From Haloarcula halophila (GTDB taxonomy: Archaea > Halobacteriota > Halobacteria > Halobacteriales > Haloarculaceae), in contig NZ_CP119559.1 in assembly GCF_029278565.1 (NCBI RefSeq), forward strand, positions 1,426,001 through 1,490,000: a stretch of DNA of 64,000 bases. The letters run 5' to 3'. Shown one piece after another: positions 4,266 to 42,483 of the stretch; position 1 is the stretch's first letter, and the number at the start of each line of letters is the position of its first letter. Both the position numbers and the translations under genes were made by a program. A model generated the notes under the pieces. That model made no database searches, was not told the origin of the DNA, and saw only the letters and a program-made list of their open reading frames with translations.

Positions 4266-6184
4266 CCGACCGGAATCGGAAAACTGTCCTCGTCGGCGTC
4301 CTCGCGGCAGCGAGCGGACTCACGCTGGTACTGGTTCCGGGCGGGACACTGCTGCCGCGGGTCGTGGCGACGTTGGCGACCATCGCTGTCGGGCTCGCAG
4401 CGGTTCTCCTCGCGGCCGACCGCCTGTTCGGGGGCGACGACCCGTCGGTGACGCTCCCGACCCCGGAGACGCGGCCGGCCTACAGCGTCCCGGGCACCGA
4501 ACTCCGAGAGCTCCTAGACGCCGTGGGTCTGGTCGGCCGGCGGCGACTCGCCGATGACGCCGTCGAATCCGACGGTGCGACGCCGCGCGAACGGCTCCGG
4601 GCACGGCTCCAGCGCCTCGGCGAGGACGTACTGTCCCGGGTCGAGGGACTCCCTCGGGGGGCTGCGAGCGAGCGGCTACGACGGGGGGACTGGACCGACG
4701 ACCCAGCCGCGAGCGCGTTCTTCGCCGGCGACCTCTGTCCGCCGCTGTCCCGCTGGGCGTTCCTCCCGGGTCGAGAGGGCGAACTACCGATAGTCGAGCG
4801 GGCGTGCCACGCCGTCACGGCCCTCGCCGATCGGGCCGACGACGGGACCCCCCGGCCGGACGCGCGACTCGAGCCACCGGCCACCGCGAGCGGGGGTACC
4901 GATTGGCCGCCCGACGACCTGCCACGGGAGCGGACGACCGGACGGACCAGACGTGTCGTGGTGGCGGTCCTGCTCGCCAGCGCGGTCGGGACCGTCCTCG
5001 GTTATCCGGGGACCGTCCTGACCGCGACCCTCGGCGTGTCGCTGGCCGGGGCAGCGAAGGTGTGGTCGCCGACGGTCGATCTAGCGGTGTCACGCTCTCT
5101 CGACGCGACGACACCGGCTCCGGGTGAGGCGGTGACGGTCACGGTCACGGTCGAGAACGTCGGCACGACGACCCTGCCCGACATCCGGCTGATCGACGGG
5201 GTCCCGACCGGGCTGACGGTCGCCGACGGCCACCCCCGGTTCACGACGGCGCTGCGTCCGGGACGGGCCAGGACGGTCTCGTACACGGTCAGGGCCGTCC
5301 CGGGACGACACACGTTCGACCCGGCGACTGTCGTCGTCGGCGACGTTGCCGGTGCGACGGAGACGGTGACCACCGTCGGGGCCGCCGACGGCCCGACGGA
5401 ACTCCACTGTGGCTTCGGGAAACAGGACGGGAAGTCGGTCGAGCGACGGTCACAGGTCACACTCGACGCCGGCCAGCAGGTTGCCGACGCCAGCGGTTCG
5501 GGCGTGGAGTTCGACACGCTCCGGGAGTACCGCCCCGGCGATCCGCCGGCCCGCATCGACTGGCACCACCGGGCAAAGACCGGCGACCTCGCGACGGTGG
5601 AGTTCCGCGAGCCGCGACTGGCACGCGTCGCCGTCGTCGTCGACACGCGTCCGGCGGCGTACGTCGCGGCGAGCCCCGGCGGCGTCCCAGCACCCCGCCA
5701 CGCCGCCGTCGCCGCGGACGCGGTGGTCGGCCGCCTGCTCGCCGATGGTGTCCCGGTCGGGCTGGCGACGACAGCAGGGGACTGCTGGCGGCCACCACAG
5801 GCGGGAGACGAACAGCGGGCGGCGTTACGGACGCTGCTGGCCGGCGGGGACGCCGTCCCCTGGCGGCCGGTGACAGCGTCTGCGACAGGCGAGGATGTCG
5901 CGTCGAGCCTCGCCGCGCGACTCGATCCGGACGTACAGGTGCTGTTCGTCTCGCCGATGTGTGACGACGAAAGCGTCGACCTGGCGCGTCGCTTGGAACT
6001 GGCCGGGCACGACACCACGGTCGTCAGTCCGGACTGTACCGGCGCGGCCACAGTCGAAGGGACGTACGGTCGCCTCGTTCGCCGACAGCGACTCTCCACG
6101 CTCCGTGGTCACGACATCCCGGTGACGGACTGGGACCCGGCGGACGAACTCGGGGAGGTGTGTGCGCGTGTCGCCACCGTCTGA
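4262..6184 (+). CDS. DUF7269-DUF58 fusion membrane protein
   Basis: This 640-residue protein starts at GTG 4262 inside the stop of the previous gene (GTGA overlap). Residues 1-~215 carry two hydrophobic segments and a helical region (PGTELRELLDAVGLVG ... GDWTDDPAASAFFAGD). They match what is normally a separate small protein between DUF4129 and DUF58 (DUF7269). After a charged linker come two more membrane spans (VVVAVLLASAVGTVLGYPGTV), a beta-sandwich part (SLDATTPAPGEAVTVTV), and the DUF58 core with REYRPGDPPARIDWHHRAKTGDL and a vWA-like strand VAVVVDTR. DUF58 proteins are thought to be clients of MoxR. The frame is continuous through the junction, so this is a real fusion unless the read is wrong. 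Confidence 0.85.
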   Translation: MTDRNRKTVLVGVLAAASGLTLVLVPGGTLLPRVVATLATIAVGLAAVLLAADRLFGGDDPSVTLPTPETRPAYSVPGTELRELLDAVGLVGRRRLADDAVESDGATPRERLRARLQRLGEDVLSRVEGLPRGAASERLRRGDWTDDPAASAFFAGDLCPPLSRWAFLPGREGELPIVERACHAVTALADRADDGTPRPDARLEPPATASGGTDWPPDDLPRERTTGRTRRVVVAVLLASAVGTVLGYPGTVLTATLGVSLAGAAKVWSPTVDLAVSRSLDATTPAPGEAVTVTVTVENVGTTTLPDIRLIDGVPTGLTVADGHPRFTTALRPGRARTVSYTVRAVPGRHTFDPATVVVGDVAGATETVTTVGAADGPTELHCGFGKQDGKSVERRSQVTLDAGQQVADASGSGVEFDTLREYRPGDPPARIDWHHRAKTGDLATVEFREPRLARVAVVVDTRPAAYVAASPGGVPAPRHAAVAADAVVGRLLADGVPVGLATTAGDCWRPPQAGDEQRAALRTLLAGGDAVPWRPVTASATGEDVASSLAARLDPDVQVLFVSPMCDDESVDLARRLELAGHDTTVVSPDCTGAATVEGTYGRLVRRQRLSTLRGHDIPVTDWDPADELGEVCARVATV

Positions 6185-33842: not shown

Positions 33843-34700
33843 TCAGGACGGGCAGGCGAGTTCCGAAGTACCCTGTAGCCGTTTCAGGGAGTCCAGCCCG
33901 TCACAGACCGGGTCGGCGGCCTTGTCCGACCCCTCCCCGATCAGTAAGTCGCCGCCCTCACTCGTCCGCTCGAGGGCGGGATGGACGTAGACCTCGCCGG
34001 TCGCGTCGAGCGAGACGGCGGCGATGGCCTCGTCGGAACCGTAATTGTTCGTGAGCTGCCCGTTCGTGGGCACCACAACGTCGCGCTGAGTAACCACACC
34101 GTCCGCTCCGTCCAGCACCCAGACGGTCGCGGTTCGGTCAGCGTCTGGACCGAGTCCCGAGACGGAGACCGCGCCACGCCTCCCGTTGAATCGAACGTCG
34201 GTCTGGCTCTGTTGGCCCGTCGTGGTCCGCTCGTCCGCACAGGTGACGGTGTACTCGACCGTCCGTGGACTGGTCGTCTCGGCGAAGACGCTGCCACCGT
34301 CTGCCTGGGCATCGAACGAGACAGTTCGCTCGATCGTGTCCGAAGGGGTACACTCAACGGTCGTCGAGACGTCGAACGACTCGCCGATGCCGACGCCATC
34401 GTGCGTTTCGACTTCCTGATCGGGCTCGTCTACCTCGTCCGGCCCGACGGCGTACCAGACCGTGAGATCGACCGGTTGGTTGAAGTGGTTACTCACGCTC
34501 AGGAACTCGATCTCGACCGTCTCGTGTGAGTCGGCGTTCAGGGAGAGATCCTCGTACCGTAAGGACATGTACGCATTCTTGTCGCCGACCACGTCGACGG
34601 ACACCTGCCGATCGGCCGAAACCGAACTGAACCCCTGAGCCGAGACAGTCAGCATCGCCGCTGCGGCCAGCGCGAGCACGAGCGCGAGTCGCCTATACAT
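33843..34700 (-). CDS. Exported DUF1102-like protein
   Basis: 285 residues from ATG 34700. The N-terminus is a signal peptide (LALVLALAAAAMLTVSAQGFSS). The mature part begins ADRQVSVDVVGDKNAYMSL, the motif ADR-x-L-S-V-D-V-V-x-D-x-x-A-Y-L shared with the two proteins at 35747 and 36707. The remainder is beta-rich with Cys pairs (CTPSDTIERT, VTCADERT, DPVCDGL, ELACPS) that could form disulfides. The gene overlaps the DUF7344 regulator by eight bases, so the two are translationally coupled. It lacks a TM anchor and should be released or assembled. Confidence 0.75.
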   Translation of the reverse strand: MYRRLALVLALAAAAMLTVSAQGFSSVSADRQVSVDVVGDKNAYMSLRYEDLSLNADSHETVEIEFLSVSNHFNQPVDLTVWYAVGPDEVDEPDQEVETHDGVGIGESFDVSTTVECTPSDTIERTVSFDAQADGGSVFAETTSPRTVEYTVTCADERTTTGQQSQTDVRFNGRRGAVSVSGLGPDADRTATVWVLDGADGVVTQRDVVVPTNGQLTNNYGSDEAIAAVSLDATGEVYVHPALERTSEGGDLLIGEGSDKAADPVCDGLDSLKRLQGTSELACPS

Positions 34701-35310
34701 CCTCGACCTCCGCCGGGCTGTCGGCGGACTCCAGTCGCATCCCCCGCGAAAGGAGGAAATGTGACAGCGACGAGACGCCGAACGCCCCGATGAGGAAGAC
34801 CGTCCACCCGGTCGGCGGGATCGCGACGAACGGCTGGACACCCAGCGAGGCGAGTCCGACGAGGATCGCGCCGATAGCGCTGAGGCCCATGTAGTAGAAG
34901 CTCCACGGGATGTCGTACCGGTCGACGACTTCGAGGTAGATGTCGAGCTCGGCGGCGGCGTCGGTCAACTCGACGACGCCGGCCCGACGATCGAACTCGA
35001 CGATGCCGGTTTCGTCCATCTTCGGGAGGTGGAACTGCTGGAGCGAGGAGTACACCGTCTTGCGCTCGCTCGAAGAGATCTCCCGGATACTGCTGTCGTT
35101 CTCCCAAGCAGCGACCTGTTCAGCCAAGTCCGAGAGTGTGCCTACCTGTTCTTTGTTTTTCAAGTACTGGATGACGAACCGACGTCGCCGGTTGCTCAAC
35201 ATCTCGAAGATCTCGTCCCGCGTCAGCGATTCGTTTCCGACCTCCGTCTCCGGCACTCGTAACTGATCGATATCGATGCCACCAGTGTGCTGTGACTGTG
35301 ATTTACTCAT
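34693..35310 (-). CDS. DUF7344 winged-helix regulator with C-terminal membrane domain
   Basis: 205 residues. Residues ~35-115 form a winged helix (RDEIFEMLSNRRRRFVIQYLKN, TLSDLAEQVAAWEND, ERKTVYSSLQQFHLPKMDETGIVEFD), the DUF7344 pattern found in many haloarchaeal regulators. Two membrane spans at the C-terminus (FYYMGLSAIGAILVGLASLG and WTVFLIGAFGVSSLSHFLL) would tether it to the membrane. A GGAGGG sits four bases before the ATG. A perfect palindrome lies 24 bases upstream of the start and is a candidate operator. The gene is divergent from the duplicated exported-protein genes and first in the operon with the gene at 33843. Confidence 0.85.
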   Translation of the reverse strand: MSKSQSQHTGGIDIDQLRVPETEVGNESLTRDEIFEMLSNRRRRFVIQYLKNKEQVGTLSDLAEQVAAWENDSSIREISSSERKTVYSSLQQFHLPKMDETGIVEFDRRAGVVELTDAAAELDIYLEVVDRYDIPWSFYYMGLSAIGAILVGLASLGVQPFVAIPPTGWTVFLIGAFGVSSLSHFLLSRGMRLESADSPAEVEDV

Positions 35311-35746
35311 GTACCCTCCCACCCTGGAGCTATCGAACACTGCCGATAGTGTTCGTGACGACTACAGTTCAGTTCTATATCAGAAGGTCATAAAGTTGTT
35401 GTTAGTTTTGGATTTTGAGGAGGACGAATAGACTGCCTTCGGGCGAAATCTTCACTTCGGAATCCCTACAATACCGGCGCTGCTGGCGGATAACCCTCCG
35501 TTTTCGAGACGGCGTGTGAGATCGCCGATCGAACACGATCTGTCGGGATTTCAAAGAGTCTATTCCCGGTTTCTCACTCGGTATGACCACATCTACCGGG
35601 GCGATGCGCTCGGTTCAAACAGCGTATGTCGTGGTTCAATCGGTCTATGCACTCGTATCATAGAGACTACTACAATATCCGATGCATCTGTGGTAGCTGA
35701 TAGCGCACCGGCCCTCTGGGGGTGGGTGCCAACGAGGTAACGACCA
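35311..35746. other. AT-richer divergent intergenic region
   Basis: 436 bases between the DUF7344 regulator and the first Tat-exported gene. It holds the regulator promoter and palindrome on the left and, from about 35608, an upstream copy of the repeated promoter segment. The composition is clearly AT-richer than most of the window. No convincing ORF; a 62-codon minus-strand frame at 35402-35590 has no family features. Confidence 0.6.
35334..35355. promoter_or_regulatory. Perfect 8-bp inverted repeat upstream of the DUF7344 gene
   Basis: CGAACACT-GCCGAT-AGTGTTCG has perfect arms and a six-base spacer, about 24 bases before the regulator start and between its ATG and the TATA-like ATAT/ATAAAG stretch at 35376-35400. 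It could be an operator for autoregulation or a hairpin in the 5' leader. Confidence 0.6.
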
Positions 35747-35828
35747 ATGCAACGACGCAAGTTCCTGATCGGAATGGGATCGCTCGCCGCCGGCTCGGCG
35801 GCTGCAATGGGTACCGGTGCGTTTACGA
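35717..35828 (+). repeat. 112-bp repeat copy 1: ribosome-binding site, start codon and Tat signal
   Basis: Identical base for base to 36677-36788, offset 960. It covers the GAGGT Shine-Dalgarno region, ATG 35747 and the codons of the signal sequence through GTFTT-like residues (ends at GTTTACGA). Sequence upstream of it, back to about 35608, is also similar but diverged. The coding sequences downstream do not match. Confidence 0.95.
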
Positions 35829-36325
35829 GTGCCGAAGCGGATCGTGATCTAACCGTTAGTGTAGCCGAAGACTCGAACGGCTATCTCAAGCTGAGTGCTA
35901 ACGGTAAAGGCGATAATTCACTGTTCTCGTCCATCGAGGAGAACACGCTTACTCTGGACTTTGGGGAACGGGATCTCGGTTCCGGTGAACCCGACCCGCA
36001 AGGAGTGAATCCGGATTCAGTGATGCAGTTTGACGGTGTGTTCAGGATTTCGAACCTCGGAACTCAGTCGGTAGACGTGTGGTTCGAAACCGATATGGAC
36101 GGTGTAACGTTCTACCGGTTCAGTGATCCAGACGGGAACAGTCTCAACGGATGGGAAAACAGGAAAGAAGGGCTCGGGGAAGGAGCCCATATGACGCCAG
36201 GTATCGAGATCGATACGACTGGAGACACTAGTGTCGAGGACTTAGAAGGCGAGGTCACGATTTACGCGAGGGATGCCGACCAAGACGACCCACCAGAGCA
36301 GCCGGAATCTGAACCGGCCGAATAA
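35747..36325 (+). CDS. Tat-exported DUF1102-like protein, copy A
   Basis: 192 residues. The start MQRRKFLIGMGSLAAGSAAA is a twin-arginine signal (RRKFL). After cleavage near AFTSAEA the mature part begins ADRDLTVSVAEDSNGYLKL, matching the motif in the proteins at 33843 and 36707. The middle is beta-rich and Asn/Gly/Asp-rich (NGKGDNSLF, DSVMQFDGVFRISNLGTQSVDVWF). The chain ends in an acidic Glu/Pro tail (DDPPEQPESEPAE). There is no TM anchor. An SD GAGGT precedes the ATG by eight bases. Codon use is less GC-biased than the window average. Confidence 0.82.
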   Translation: MQRRKFLIGMGSLAAGSAAAMGTGAFTSAEADRDLTVSVAEDSNGYLKLSANGKGDNSLFSSIEENTLTLDFGERDLGSGEPDPQGVNPDSVMQFDGVFRISNLGTQSVDVWFETDMDGVTFYRFSDPDGNSLNGWENRKEGLGEGAHMTPGIEIDTTGDTSVEDLEGEVTIYARDADQDDPPEQPESEPAE

Positions 36326-36706
36326 GCGTCCGCACCCATAGATATTCGAGACGTTCGAATCGATCCGGCCAGTTCGACGGGAGATACGCCGGATTCAGCG
36401 AAAACGACGAGAGAAGACTTTTAATAGACGAATCGAACCCGTACCCAGGCTCGGATAGCGTCGGTATCCAGATCACGGCTATCGGGCAAGTCGGACTCTG
36501 ACATCGGTCGGCAGTTCGCAGCATTGCTCAGGTTCTGGGACAGTTTTCTCGGTTCGATCGGCTCACCCGTTCAGTTCAAACAGGGTATACGATCGTTCAA
36601 TCGATCTGCGATTTTGCTCAAAGAGCGGACTACAATGTCCATAGCGTCTCTGGTATCTGGTAGCGCACCGACCCTTTGGGGGTGGGTGCCAACGAGGTAA
36701 CGACCA
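36326..36706. other. Intergenic spacer between the two duplicated exported genes
   Basis: 381 bases. The right 140 bases are a diverged copy of the region upstream of the first gene (for example the blocks AGTTCAAACAGGGTATACGATCG and ACTACAATGTCC, which parallel 35610-35680). The left part shows no gene. AT-richer than average. Confidence 0.6.
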
Positions 36707-36788
36707 ATGCAACGACGCAAGTTCCTGATCGGAATGGGATCGCTCGCCGCCGGCTCGGCGGCTGCAATGGGTACCGGTGCGTTTACGA
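36677..36788 (+). repeat. 112-bp repeat copy 2: ribosome-binding site, start codon and Tat signal
   Basis: Identical to 35717-35828. It carries the same GAGGT, ATG 36707 and signal codons. It ends at GTTTACGA, where the two genes diverge abruptly. Confidence 0.95.
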
Positions 36789-37504
36789 CCGAAGCCTCTC
36801 GGGCTATGAGTATCGACGTTGTGGGCTCGGAAAGCGCATACTTGGGTGTGGACCCCGAAACTGGGTCAGAGTACGTCGAAGAATCAAGTCCGATGTCGAT
36901 AAACTTGGCGGGGAACAGCGACTACGGGGGCTCCGGATTATTCGAGGAATCCGATACTGCGATTGCTCCGGCCTTCGAACTCCAGAACCAGTCGGATGAG
37001 ACCCTTTACGTCGAGGTTGAGAATCCTCTCGCAAACAATGATATTAGCACGCCGAGTCTGGAAGGGCCGGCTGGGGTCGATGTCCAGTTTCTTACCGTAC
37101 CATCCCTGCCACTGAGAGATTACAATGGGAAAGGAGGCCTCGCACTGATCGGCCGCGATTCTAAAGTGGAGGGTAGTGGTAACGGTCTTGGCGGGGGCTT
37201 CGATGACCCTGGCTCCAATGAATATTGGTTCCACCAAGGCCCGAATGATACCCCATCAAATGCGCCAAACCGCACGGCATTGACTCAGTCCAGTGACAAA
37301 TCGGCAGCGGGGGCACTTGAAATCGCACCGGGTCAATCTTTCCCGGTCGTTTTCCGAGTCGTGGTTAATGATGTGGCTGAGAATACTGAGGCAAACGAAC
37401 CGCGGGATATTGACGCAAACTTCACGATTGAGGCGTTCGACACCACTTCCAAACTCACGTACGATACGGTCAATGACATTTGGCCATCGGACTCCCCGTC
37501 GTAA
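36707..37504 (+). CDS. Tat-exported DUF1102-like protein, copy B
   Basis: 265 residues. It has the same twin-arginine signal as copy A, encoded by identical DNA. The mature start TEASRAMSIDVVGSESAYLGV keeps the family motif; the rest differs from copy A and is longer. It contains FELQNQSDETLYVEVENPLAN and a Ser/Gly/Asn-rich part. The C-terminal portion ends FRVVVNDVAENTEANEPRDIDANFTIEAFDTTSK. Codon use is markedly more AT-rich than in neighbouring genes (one line, 37381-37440, is 50% GC against 73% for 1741-1800). Either the gene was transferred or it evolves quickly. The function is probably structural at the surface; this is inference. Confidence 0.82.
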   Translation: MQRRKFLIGMGSLAAGSAAAMGTGAFTTEASRAMSIDVVGSESAYLGVDPETGSEYVEESSPMSINLAGNSDYGGSGLFEESDTAIAPAFELQNQSDETLYVEVENPLANNDISTPSLEGPAGVDVQFLTVPSLPLRDYNGKGGLALIGRDSKVEGSGNGLGGGFDDPGSNEYWFHQGPNDTPSNAPNRTALTQSSDKSAAGALEIAPGQSFPVVFRVVVNDVAENTEANEPRDIDANFTIEAFDTTSKLTYDTVNDIWPSDSPS

Positions 37505-38154: not shown

Positions 38155-39099
38155 GTGGCCCGACGCACACTCGTCCTCGTCGCCGTGCTCGCACTGGCGT
38201 CGGTAGTGTTGCTCGTGCCGACGGGCGCAGCGCCGTTCACCCAGTCGGGCACCGATTCGATCACCGGCGAAGTCCACCTCGCGCCCGCGGAGGGACCGAA
38301 CGGGCGGTACGCAGTGCTCGACGAGGACGGCGAGATAGAGATCGTAGTGGATGAATCGAACCCATACGCCGATGCGGATGGCGTCAAGGAGAACGCGACC
38401 ACCCGCATCGACGACGTGTTCACGATCACGTACACCGGGGCCGAGCAAGCGAAAGTGTGGCTGACCAACGACGCCGAGGACGTCCGGTTCTACCGCAGCG
38501 GGGGCGCAGCCAGCACCCTCGAACGGGAGGACAAAGCGGTCGTGCTCGGGCCGAACGCGACCGTTCACGTGGGGCTGCGGATCGACACCCGCGGGAATCA
38601 CGACGTCGAGCAGGCCGATTCCTTCACCGTCCACGCGGAGGCTCCCGACGAATCGACGCCAGCACCGGCGGAGACGCCCGAGCCGACACCGACGCCGGAG
38701 CCGTCGCTCACCGACGAGAGTGAAGACGACGGCGACGATACGACGCCGACGGCGACTGAGACGCCGACCGATGCCAACGAAAGCGACGACAGCGATAGGA
38801 GGACACCGACAGCGACGCCGGAACAGAGCGTCGCCCCGCCGACCTCGACAACCGACGGCGGCGTCGGCTCGTCGTCGATAGGTGGAGTCGGCGGTGTGAC
38901 ACCGACGGCCACGCCGAGTCCGACCGATGCCGGGAGGGTCGTGGATCAAGACCCAGTCGGCGGCCAGCCGACGGAACTCGGCGGGTTCGCACAGGACCCG
39001 GGAGTCGTCTTCGGAGCACTCCTCGTCCTGCTCCTGTTGGCGTACCTACTGCGTCGGGCCGCCGAGCGGGCACGGGGGGACGAGCTTCGATCTGAATGA
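38155..39099 (+). CDS. Exported DUF1102-like protein with C-terminal membrane anchor
   Basis: 314 residues from GTG 38155. A signal peptide (LVLVAVLALASVVLLVPTGAAP) leads to a beta-rich module with PNGRYAVLDEDGEIEIVV and FTITYTGAEQAKVWLTND, which fits the DUF1102/WxL-like pattern of the neighbours. A long Thr/Pro/Glu-rich stalk (~residues 165-270) follows, typically O-glycosylated. A single TM segment (VVFGALLVLLLLAYLL) and an Arg-rich tail (RRAAERARGDELR) end it. Unlike PGF-CTERM proteins there is no PGF motif. The stop overlaps the start of the rhomboid gene (ATGA), which suggests coupling and perhaps an enzyme-substrate relation. Confidence 0.78.
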   Translation: MARRTLVLVAVLALASVVLLVPTGAAPFTQSGTDSITGEVHLAPAEGPNGRYAVLDEDGEIEIVVDESNPYADADGVKENATTRIDDVFTITYTGAEQAKVWLTNDAEDVRFYRSGGAASTLEREDKAVVLGPNATVHVGLRIDTRGNHDVEQADSFTVHAEAPDESTPAPAETPEPTPTPEPSLTDESEDDGDDTTPTATETPTDANESDDSDRRTPTATPEQSVAPPTSTTDGGVGSSSIGGVGGVTPTATPSPTDAGRVVDQDPVGGQPTELGGFAQDPGVVFGALLVLLLLAYLLRRAAERARGDELRSE

Positions 39100-40031
39100 A
39101 CGGACCAGGCGAGTCTTCCACCGAGCGAACGATGGACGACGATACGACGCCGACAGTGAGCGAACTGTTGGACAGCGCCACCGCCGTCGACGTTGTGCTC
39201 CTGCTCACGGTGCCTGCGCTGTTGATCGCGGTCGCGTCGCTGCCGGCGTCCGTCCGCCGGTCGCTCGTCTTCGAGTACGCCGCCCCGTCGTTCGGGACGG
39301 CGGTCGCCGCGCCGTTCGTCCACCTGAACGAGACACACTTGCACCGGAACCTCCTCGCGTACGCCGTCCTCGCGCCGACCGTCTACCTACTGAGCGTCGT
39401 GAGCGGCCATCGGCAACGGTTTCGGGTCGTGTTCGTCTCGTTCGTGCTGGTCTGTCCGCCCGTCCTGTCGTACCTGAACCTGGCGATCGTCCGCGAGGGC
39501 ATAAGCGTCGGCTTCTCGGGCGTGGCGATGGCGCTGTACGGCTATCTCCCACTGGCGATCGCCGTCCATCTCGAACGGCGGTTCGACGTGGCCCCGACGG
39601 AGACGACCGCGCCGTTGCTGTTCTTCTCGGGACTCCAGCTGATCACGGTATTGACACTCGGTGCCGTCGCCACTACCCGGGTGAGTGTCCCGATCCGTGG
39701 TGTCACCGTTCCGGTTACCTCGGTCCTCGTCGCGTCGCTGATCGGCCTCGTCGCGGCGTTGACACTGGTGTTAACACTGTACACGCTAGCGGTGCGCGAC
39801 CACGTCACGGCGCTGATGGCGACCCTGCGTACCACGACGACCCGTTCCGGCCACTTCGAGTTGCTCGTCCTCGCGACTGGCCTGTTTCTGACCGTTCCTT
39901 TCGTCACCTTTCCGATCAACCCCGTCGTCGGGAACAGCGTCCTGAACCTGTACGTTCACCTGGTCGGGTACGCGCTGGGGTTCATCGGTTCGTTCACACT
40001 GGTCGCTATCGAGGAGCGTCTGGCGATATGA
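39096..40031 (+). CDS. Rhomboid-family intramembrane serine protease
   Basis: 311 residues with about eight membrane spans. The rhomboid catalytic features are present: the nucleophile motif GFSG (Ser141, in ISVGFSGVAMALYG), His288 in LYVHLVGYALGFIG (the H-x3-G-x3-G helix), and an upstream THLHRNLLAYAVL segment resembling the HxxxN region of TM2. Rhomboids cut substrates within or next to the membrane. The gene directly follows, by a four-base overlap, a single-span exported protein, so that protein is a natural substrate candidate. The start is ATG 39096; ATG 39132 is a possible alternative. Confidence 0.75.
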   Translation: MNGPGESSTERTMDDDTTPTVSELLDSATAVDVVLLLTVPALLIAVASLPASVRRSLVFEYAAPSFGTAVAAPFVHLNETHLHRNLLAYAVLAPTVYLLSVVSGHRQRFRVVFVSFVLVCPPVLSYLNLAIVREGISVGFSGVAMALYGYLPLAIAVHLERRFDVAPTETTAPLLFFSGLQLITVLTLGAVATTRVSVPIRGVTVPVTSVLVASLIGLVAALTLVLTLYTLAVRDHVTALMATLRTTTTRSGHFELLVLATGLFLTVPFVTFPINPVVGNSVLNLYVHLVGYALGFIGSFTLVAIEERLAI

Positions 40032-40070: not shown

Positions 40071-40092
40071 GGTGGAGGTCCAATCGCTGCCG

Positions 40093-41241
40093 ATGACGGT
40101 GCGGGGTTGGACCGAGACACTGCTCGAGGTGATCGTCGTGGTGTTCCTCGTGTCGATGGTGGTCGGGCAACTGCTCGGACAGCCGGTCCTGCTGGGCTAC
40201 GTCACGACGGGGAGCATGCAGCCGACGCTGAACCCGGGCGACGGCTTCGTCGCGATTCCGGCAGCGCTGGCCGGCCCGGTCGAGGAGGGCGACGTCGTCA
40301 CGTTCCGGGCCGAGGAGATACAGGGGGGCGGGCTGACGACCCACCGCGTCGTCGACCGGACCGACCGGGGATACGTCACTCGCGGGGACAACAACCCGTT
40401 CACCGACCAAGACAGCGACGAGCCGCCGGTGACCGAGGCCCAGATCGTCGCTGTCGTCTGGCAGCCCGGCGGGACGGTCGTCTCCGTCCCCGGCGTCGGC
40501 CTCCTCGTGTCGGGGACACAGGAGACGCTGGGGGCGATCCAGGGACAGCTAGCCCGGCTTGCCGGGACACGCTCGCTGCTCGGGACACAGGGGATCGCGT
40601 ACCTGCTGGTGGCGCTGTCGGTCGCCGGCTACGCTATCGACATCCTGCTGGGCGGGGATCGGGAGCGCGAACAACGCGAGACCTCCCGACAGACGGGCGT
40701 GAGTGTCCGGCTGATACTGCTCGTCCTGGCCGGAGCGGTCGTCCTGTCGGCGACAGCCGCGATGGTCGGGCCGTCCGGGTCACAGGAGTTCGGCGTCGTC
40801 AGTTCCGAGAGTGACTCCCCGGGCCTCCGCGTCATCGAACAGGGGACGACCGAATCGTCCCGGTACATCCTGGGCAACGGCGGGTTCGTCCCGATGGTCA
40901 CGTACGTCGATCCGGTGACCGAGGGCGTCACGTTCGAACCGCGGGAGACAGTGGTACCGGCTCGATCGACGGTCAACGGGACGATCAGTATCACGGCCCC
41001 ACCGGAGACCGGCTACTACCGGTATTTCGTCGTCGAGTACCGGTACCTGCATCTCCTGCCGCAGTCGACGATACGGAGCCTCTACCGGATACACCCCTGG
41101 ACGCCGATCGTCGTCATCGACGCGCTCCTCGCAGGGTCGTTCTATCTGCTCGGCGCGGCGTTCGTCGACACCGGTCGGGTGCGCTCGCGCTCGCGGGAGG
41201 CCCCCTCCCGCCTCGACCGGTTCGTCTCCCGACTCAAGTAG
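40093..41241 (+). CDS. ER/SipW-type signal peptidase I with C-terminal beta domain
   Basis: 382 residues. An N-terminal TM span (LLEVIVVVFLVSMVVG) precedes the peptidase core. The catalytic Ser41 is in TGSMQPTL, and His84 in TTHRVVD takes the place of the bacterial Lys. The GDNN motif places Asp99. This Ser-His arrangement marks the ER/SipW class. A second TM (GIAYLLVALSVAGYAIDILLG), a third TM, an extracytoplasmic beta domain (about residues 240-330, LRVIEQGTTESSRYILGNGG) and a final TM follow. Haloarchaeal housekeeping signal peptidases usually lack this extra domain. The context suggests a peptidase dedicated to the exported proteins next to it. Confidence 0.85.
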   Translation: MTVRGWTETLLEVIVVVFLVSMVVGQLLGQPVLLGYVTTGSMQPTLNPGDGFVAIPAALAGPVEEGDVVTFRAEEIQGGGLTTHRVVDRTDRGYVTRGDNNPFTDQDSDEPPVTEAQIVAVVWQPGGTVVSVPGVGLLVSGTQETLGAIQGQLARLAGTRSLLGTQGIAYLLVALSVAGYAIDILLGGDREREQRETSRQTGVSVRLILLVLAGAVVLSATAAMVGPSGSQEFGVVSSESDSPGLRVIEQGTTESSRYILGNGGFVPMVTYVDPVTEGVTFEPRETVVPARSTVNGTISITAPPETGYYRYFVVEYRYLHLLPQSTIRSLYRIHPWTPIVVIDALLAGSFYLLGAAFVDTGRVRSRSREAPSRLDRFVSRLK

Positions 41242-41283: not shown

Positions 41284-42483
41284 ATGAGAATGAACCGTCG
41301 GAGCCGACGACTGCGGACGGTCGTCGCTGACAACTTCGCCGTGCTCGTTGCCGTCCTCCTGATCGGCGGGGCTGTCGGCGGCTACCTCGCGTATACGACG
41401 CACGTCGAGCCGGGGACGACCACCGAGACGCGGGAGGTCTCCTCCTGGCGTTCCACGTTCGACGTCTCCCACCGGGCGCGCGTCGTAAACGGAACCGACG
41501 CGTTCGGGGAGGGGACGGTGCTTCGGAACCGGAACGTCTACTTCCGGCGGATCAGCCCGCGGCTGAACGGGTCGGTGACCTACAGCTACGCGGCCAGTGA
41601 CGGGGGCACGTTGAACACGACCACCACGGTTCTCCTCGTCTTTCGCTCGGTGGGCGCAACCGAGGGCGGGAACACGACCGTCTACTGGTCCGTCGAGCGG
41701 CCGTTGGCAGCGGCTAATGAGGGGTCACTGGCGCCGGACGAACGGACGAACGTGCCGTTCTCGGTGAACGTCACAGCAGCGACTGCGGAGGCCCGACGGA
41801 TTGAGGAGCAACTCGGCGGATCGCCCGGAACGCTCGAAGTCTCCGTCCTCGCACGGACGAACGTCTCGGGGACACGGAACGGCCAACCGGTCGACGTCAC
41901 GAGGACGAACCGGCTGCGTATAACGGCCGACGGGGGCGTCTATCGCGTCAGTACCCCCGGCCCGGTCGTCGAGTCCGACAGTCAAAGCGAGCCCGTCACC
42001 GTCCCCGCCGAATACGGGCCGGTCCGACGGATCGGCAGCCCGCTGCTGCTCGGAATCGCGCTGTGTGGGCTACTCGGTCTCACAGGGGCGAGATACACCG
42101 GCCGGCTGGATGTCTCGGAGGCCGAACGGCAGTGGCTCGCTTACCAGGAGACACGTGCGGAGTTCGACGAGTGGATAACCACCGGCCGGGTGCCGACGGA
42201 GGCGGACGGGCCACCCACGGTGACCGTCGACTCCCTCGAAGGGCTCGTCGACGTGGCCATCGACACGGACAACAGGGTCATCGAGGACCCCGAGAGGGGT
42301 GCCTGTCTCGTGCTCGGGAGCGAGCAGTGGTTCCGCTACGACGCTCCCGCGGACCCGCTGGCCGAGGACACCGGAGGGATCGACCCCCTCGACCAGGACG
42401 CCGATGGCGACAGAACGGACGGGGACCAGCCCGACGAACAGCCGACCGACGAGCCACACCCTGACGGCGACACCACTGGGTGA
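41284..42483 (+). CDS. DUF5305 membrane protein
   Basis: 399 residues. A TM span near the N-terminus ([21 protein letters not shown]) is followed by an extracytoplasmic beta domain with many Asn/Thr sites ([32 protein letters not shown]), then a second TM ([16 protein letters not shown]). A cytoplasmic domain ends in an Asp-rich tail ([13 protein letters not shown]). DUF5305 proteins are known from archaea, often near SipW-type signal peptidases. It may chaperone or anchor the exported proteins; no catalytic residues are visible. Confidence 0.8.

Follow-up and report, generated by a model that had tools for sequence, protein, structure and literature searches.

Two adjacent genes for exported proteins in a haloarchaeal genome share 112 bp base for base, and behind this block they continue into unrelated mature parts. 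With a probability of roughly three in four, the two genes would encode alternative subunits of a tafi-like surface fibre whose mature part has been replaced repeatedly by recombination, and the leaders of the pair would have been homogenised by gene conversion after the split from the sister species. This reading comes from comparative sequence analysis of the locus and its relatives.

The locus and its products

The window, a stretch of 64,000 nt, is part of a 4.04-Mb genome (G000) of the Haloarcula clade; the genus of the host includes Halomicroarcula rubra and Haloarcula amylovorans. Gene 1 (35747–36325, plus strand) encodes a predicted Tat-exported, fimbria-like subunit of 192 aa. Gene 2 (36707–37504, plus strand) encodes a protein of 265 aa with the leader of gene 1 and an unrelated mature part. 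Their start codons, at 35747 and 36707, are 960 bp apart, and both proteins begin with the twin-arginine leader MQRRKFLIGMGSLAAG... The GC content of the two mature parts is 54%, compared with 66.6% for the window.

The locus adjoins mutS. Divergent from gene 1 is a gene for a DUF7344 protein (34693–35310, minus strand; PF24035, E 1e-30), which is conserved among syntenic relatives and is a candidate regulator of the locus. It is accompanied by a TafC-like fimbrial protein that scores below the cut-off (33843–34700, minus strand; NF052521, E 8e-12). On the plus strand there follow a DUF1102-like exported protein (38155–39099), which is a weak paralogue of gene 1 at 32% identity, a rhomboid-type membrane protein (39096–40031), an archaeal/SipW-type signal peptidase I (40072–41241) and a DUF5305 protein (41284–42483). 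The signal peptidase exceeds the TIGR02228 cut-off (54.7 bits versus 51.85) and is the likely leader peptidase.

Neither protein has a Pfam match of its own. Both match the TafE and TafA families well under the equivalog cut-offs (NCBIfam TafA/TafE scores of 53.7 and 43.8 bits against 155, and of 46.9 and 34.2 bits against 190), and nothing in the genome is above either cut-off. Compared with the solved tafi pilin of Natrinema sp. J7-2, genes 1 and 2 give phmmer E values of 7e-11 and 4e-9, which are partly leader-based, and a profile match of E 3e-25 that also rests partly on the leader. The predicted model of gene 1 is all beta (pLDDT 72). Its nearest structures include FimA at rank 1 and, at rank 3 with a TM of 0.46, PDB 9p0a, which from the entry title we take to be the Natrinema sp. 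J7-2 tafi pilin; nothing falls under E 0.001. The model of gene 2 was too poor for a structure search. Genes 1 and 2 look like genes for Tat-exported, tafi-like surface-fibre subunits in a SipW-type locus, below the TafA/TafE cut-offs.

The repeated 112-bp block

Positions 35717–35828 and 36677–36788 (both plus strand) are identical, and the adjacent bases differ on both sides. Each copy runs from the 3′ arm of a 5′-UTR hairpin through an SD-like GAGGT and the ATG to codon 27 of the Tat leader, up to GTTTACGA. An earlier note on this DNA had described an exact repeat with ribosome-binding site, start codon and Tat signal, and base-for-base comparison confirms it. The note's picture of similar but diverged upstream sequence and a sharp split of the coding sequences also holds. 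The wider match around the blocks is 92% over 171 bp, with a 40-bp piece further upstream at 78%; the diverged promoter-region copies (35600–35716 for gene 1 and 36560–36676 for gene 2, plus strand) are 70% alike, compared with 100% for the block; and the mature parts have no alignable DNA. The genome contains one more, weaker copy of the block, at 79% over 92 bp (C1:1958047–1958138).

At the 86–92% identity found in the same stretch of other genes, 112 straight matches have a probability of about 5e-8 to 9e-5, so that the identity is not due to chance. That the block was duplicated or homogenised in the assembly, an error which the earlier note had named as fatal to its reading, is hardly credible: the exactness of the repeat is the sole point in its favour, whereas the flanks of the two copies are distinct, the tandem pair recurs in the genome of the sister species (G014), and near-identical leader pairs are found in four other genomes.

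Probable replacement of the mature part between species

Relatives were compared with one genome per species. There are 14 cross-species gene pairs, not independent since several share one genome, in which the upstream DNA is homologous (66–91%) and the mature parts give no DNA alignment. In three other cross-species pairs both regions have stayed homologous. In those pairs for which the end of homology was mapped, it lies at about +67 to +145, and homology mostly returns after the gene. The clearest example is G032/G037, 92% identical over 1.3 kb to +67; behind this point identity is lost, and it returns 65 bp beyond the stop codon. G005 and G017 served as a control: their first genes are 83% identical upstream and 91% in the mature part, so that fast evolution of mature parts is not a sufficient explanation. 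In the older pairs, replacement could be imitated by very fast diversifying selection, but this hardly accounts for G032/G037, with its 92% flanks, or for the mosaic described next.

Gene 1 of G014 has upstream sequence of the G000 type to +91 and a mature part of other origin. This mature part has 75–77% DNA identity to genes that lie behind other upstream sequences in G017, G005 and G141, and in other species it is located at another locus. The proteins of the locus are 61–90% identical between G000 and G014, compared with 31% for the mature part of gene 1. Tandems are present in G000, G014, G032, G083 (four genes), G086 and G123. The 3′ crossover shows no obvious fixed homology, and the genomes compared, one per species, include no intermediate strain.

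A constant promoter, 5′ UTR and Tat leader joined to alternative mature proteins is therefore well supported across species by sequence comparison. The earlier note had proposed such a constant leader with alternative mature parts, as in antigenic variation or in subunit switching by recombination. On the evolutionary scale the 14 pairs, the breakpoints and the mosaic bear this out, and since the products resemble surface-fibre subunits, one may fairly speak of subunit switching by recombination over such periods. Antigenic variation within a strain is the less likely part of the proposal; no silent cassettes were found in this genome. Nor do the relatives show one identical, stable arrangement, the finding that the note had set against itself; mature parts at the same position differ in almost all species compared.

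Some related loci have features of their own. In G005, the gene homologous to the mature part of G014 gene 1 (L035:10221–10634) is truncated to 137 aa by a TAG, at a position where the codon in G017 is for tryptophan. Contig 2 of G016 (L044, L045), which is 248 kb in length, carries a taf-like gene pair twice, as identical copies at a distance of 212 kb. At L116:3019–5786 four taf-like genes with different mature parts form an array, one of them with a GTG start, and the leader blocks are 86–96% alike over 115–188 bp.

Origin of the exact identity

In G014 the tandem pair occupies the same place beside mutS, and its two leaders are 86–88% alike. Most other within-genome leader pairs are 77–94% alike; in four further genomes, G086, G083 (the four-gene array), G123 and G032, they are near-identical at 98–99%. 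The tandem genes of G000 and G014 provide 16 informative sites for a test of conversion. From −145 to −60 the shared sites group by position (7 versus 2 and 1), and from −30 to +81 they group by genome (6 versus 0), a switch with a Fisher p of 0.007. Since the upstream region groups by position and the block by genome, the exact identity is most likely the result of gene conversion, or an equivalent recombination, after the split from the sister species. The switch in grouping, together with 100% identity here and 86–92% elsewhere, also points to a recent event.

With 16 informative sites in the test, a copy-by-copy history of duplication is a less likely alternative to conversion. An ordinary recent tandem duplication of promoter and leader that involved no conversion is very unlikely. 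Promoter and leader units are indeed found duplicated in several genomes, but the sister species already has the tandem, and likeness falls from 100% in the block to 70% in the promoter copies beside it. The earlier note had argued from identical synonymous sites that recent duplication or conversion was needed. Conversion is upheld by the site grouping and by the 100% versus 86–92% identity; identical synonymous sites as a stand-alone proof of recency are weakened, because the leader is well conserved between species and has rare codons at fixed positions.

A conserved leader and 5′ hairpin

The leader is present in 52 of the 146 genomes of the family and in 131 of 392 genomes sampled from the order. 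Leader codons are identical in 72.5% of cases (115 cross-species pairs), compared with 69% in mutS. The rare codon CAA (use 5%) is found in all leaders that have Gln2, and other rare codons recur at fixed leader positions: CGA in 94% (use 8%), GGA in 79% (use 6%) and GCA in 85% (use 4%). This conservation implies either a constraint at the nucleotide level or a shared recent ancestry.

A hairpin is predicted at the 5′ terminus of the mRNA of gene 1 (35705–35729, plus strand) and of gene 2 (36665–36689, plus strand). Across the family, the stem upstream of the leader ATG has loops of variable length. The hairpin arms pair better with their own partners than with the arms of other genes (arm-swap z 6.2, compared with 1.6 for other genes), and minimum free energy z-scores are weak (mean −1.1). 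A TACAAT box, a predicted TATA element by consensus, is situated 28 nt before the hairpin of gene 1 (35671–35676, plus strand). A second TACAAT box is 28 nt before the hairpin of gene 2 (36631–36636, plus strand), a distance read from the sequence, as the automated stem call differed for this copy. TACAAT-like boxes occur 20–32 nt ahead of the stem in 38 of 64 genes, with 8.5 expected, and this spacing places the covarying hairpin probably at the very start of the mRNA, where a 5′-terminal stem may protect the transcript. A search of Rfam RNA elements gave no match to it.

tRNA-like minihelices in related loci

A different RNA element is found in 33 of the 146 family genomes and in 121 of the 392 order genomes; there is none in the window or elsewhere in G000. 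It is a tRNA-like minihelix that consists of an acceptor-like stem and a T-arm GGCGGTTCGATTCCGCC, followed by a second hairpin, and it lies between successive genes for exported filament proteins, behind the stop codon of the first and before the start codon of the second. Its settings are taf-like operons and arrays of larger SipW-type genes (...GTSALFSDTESF). Examples are at L109:3743–3798, L111:1314–1371 and 2453–2514, L116:4334–4387 and 5013–5066, and L134:3880–3930, with others in L183, L181, L182 and further loci.

Covariation in the helices is strong, with 32 two-sided changes compared with 4.4 in shuffled alignments, and they are 97.5% paired in an alignment fitted to the model. The minihelix matches no Rfam family, and no paper on it was found in the literature searched. 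It is a candidate processing signal for RNase P/tRNase Z between cistrons. At L134:3822–3914 and 4634–4726, ARAGORN calls two tRNA-Arg (CCG) directly before taf-like genes, and these are probably full-length versions of the same element. New here are the covarying hairpin, placed by prediction at the 5′ end of the mRNA, the conserved rare leader codons and the minihelices of related loci.

Proposed mechanism and its alternatives

In the proposed mechanism, the products of genes 1 and 2 would be exported by Tat, processed by SipW and built into a tafi-like surface fibre as its alternative subunits. Both genes would carry the same unit for expression and export, made up of the TACAAT promoter, the 5′ hairpin, the SD-like site and the Tat leader, and the mature part behind this unit would be replaced repeatedly as foreign or paralogous genes recombine homologously with the locus. 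The 5′ crossover would take place in the conserved leader. Entry of such a subunit gene with a matching leader would give a tandem, the likely intermediate, and recombination between the leaders would then loop out the old mature part; the product of recombination between the two blocks would be an in-frame gene. In G000, conversion after the divergence from the sister species would have homogenised the leaders of a tandem that was already present. The selective reason is probably escape from viruses or a changed adhesion partner. A more elaborate proposal takes the hairpin and the leader, rare codons included, as the constant cassette of a dedicated haloarchaeal exchange platform that switches subunits within populations and between species; this is unlikely.

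Exact direct repeats of 112 bp at a distance of 960 bp would allow deletion to an in-frame fusion, and tandem arrays exist in other genomes. Both points are in keeping with rapid switching within a population, in which recombination between the identical blocks, by loop-out or by conversion from elsewhere, changes the displayed subunit with high frequency as in antigenic variation. A stable two-subunit fimbria would give the same picture, however, and deletion would be one-way unless restored from other copies in the genome. A search of the genome for silent donor copies found none for either mature part, which makes a pilE/pilS-like system unlikely, and rapid switching as a whole is distinctly improbable. 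The same low standing may be given to the idea of two stable subunits of one fibre, such as shaft and adapter, that are equally expressed and whose leaders are kept alike by nucleotide selection and occasional conversion, with no exchange. Tafi families do have several subunit types, and the leaders are constrained, as the rare codons and the 5′ hairpin indicate. But stable subunits leave unexplained both the mosaic in G014 and the replacement of mature parts between species at the same position, and with most other within-genome leader pairs only 77–94% alike, constraint alone does not give 100%. Repeated replacement with later homogenisation of the leaders is the reading favoured here.

Comparison with known systems

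The Tat-fimbriae (tafi) were reportedly described by Galeva et al. in 2025. The present locus is similar in having a Tat leader of the same type, detectable pilin homology and a TafC-like neighbour gene. It differs in the scores of genes 1 and 2, far below the TafA and TafE equivalog cut-offs, and in the exchange of the mature part between species; canonical TafE is over the cut-off in 12 of the 32 genomes of the genus and stays over it in 12 of 12, and among these only G030 carries the present locus too.

Fixed loci with a conserved start and a variable subunit are also known from the pilA alleles of Pseudomonas and pilE of Neisseria. The constant 5′ part and variable mature part at a fixed locus are common to both; the protein family and the secretion route are different, and no store of silent cassettes was found here. 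TasA/camelysin and the Pyrobaculum bundling pili (AbpA, PDB 7ueg) share a SipW-type peptidase in the locus and, as predicted here, a beta-sandwich subunit. The leader here is of the Tat type, unlike theirs, and 7ueg is a weak fold match to the gene 1 model, at rank 40.

The VARTIG modules of Thermococcales are the closest archaeal parallel. There too, the variable part of an archaeal secreted protein is exchanged between species and not between copies in one genome, and between-species recombination was inferred that could not be mapped on the DNA (PMC8416519). In VARTIG it is the C-terminal Ig domain of a large protein that varies (PMC8416519), and here it is everything behind the leader. The VARTIG protein is a large multi-Ig protein of arCOG07710, unlike the proteins of 192 and 265 aa described here, where the conserved part is promoter and leader alone and the breakpoints can be mapped on the DNA.

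With respect to mobile elements, viral contigs contained neither an exact copy of the leader nor a relative of gene 2, and the phages searched gave no match. A plasmid search returned one record, from Halalkaliarchaeum sp. AArc-CO, at 81%.

Concluding remarks

Such loci occur in the named relatives Halomicroarcula rubra and Haloarcula amylovorans, and unexpected RNA elements were found in the same kind of operon. The locus would represent a case, mapped at the DNA level, of the replacement of an archaeal surface-fibre subunit, with the leader as the likely crossover region. It makes archaeal variation of exposed filaments, with viruses or mating partners as possible drivers, testable by strain sequencing.
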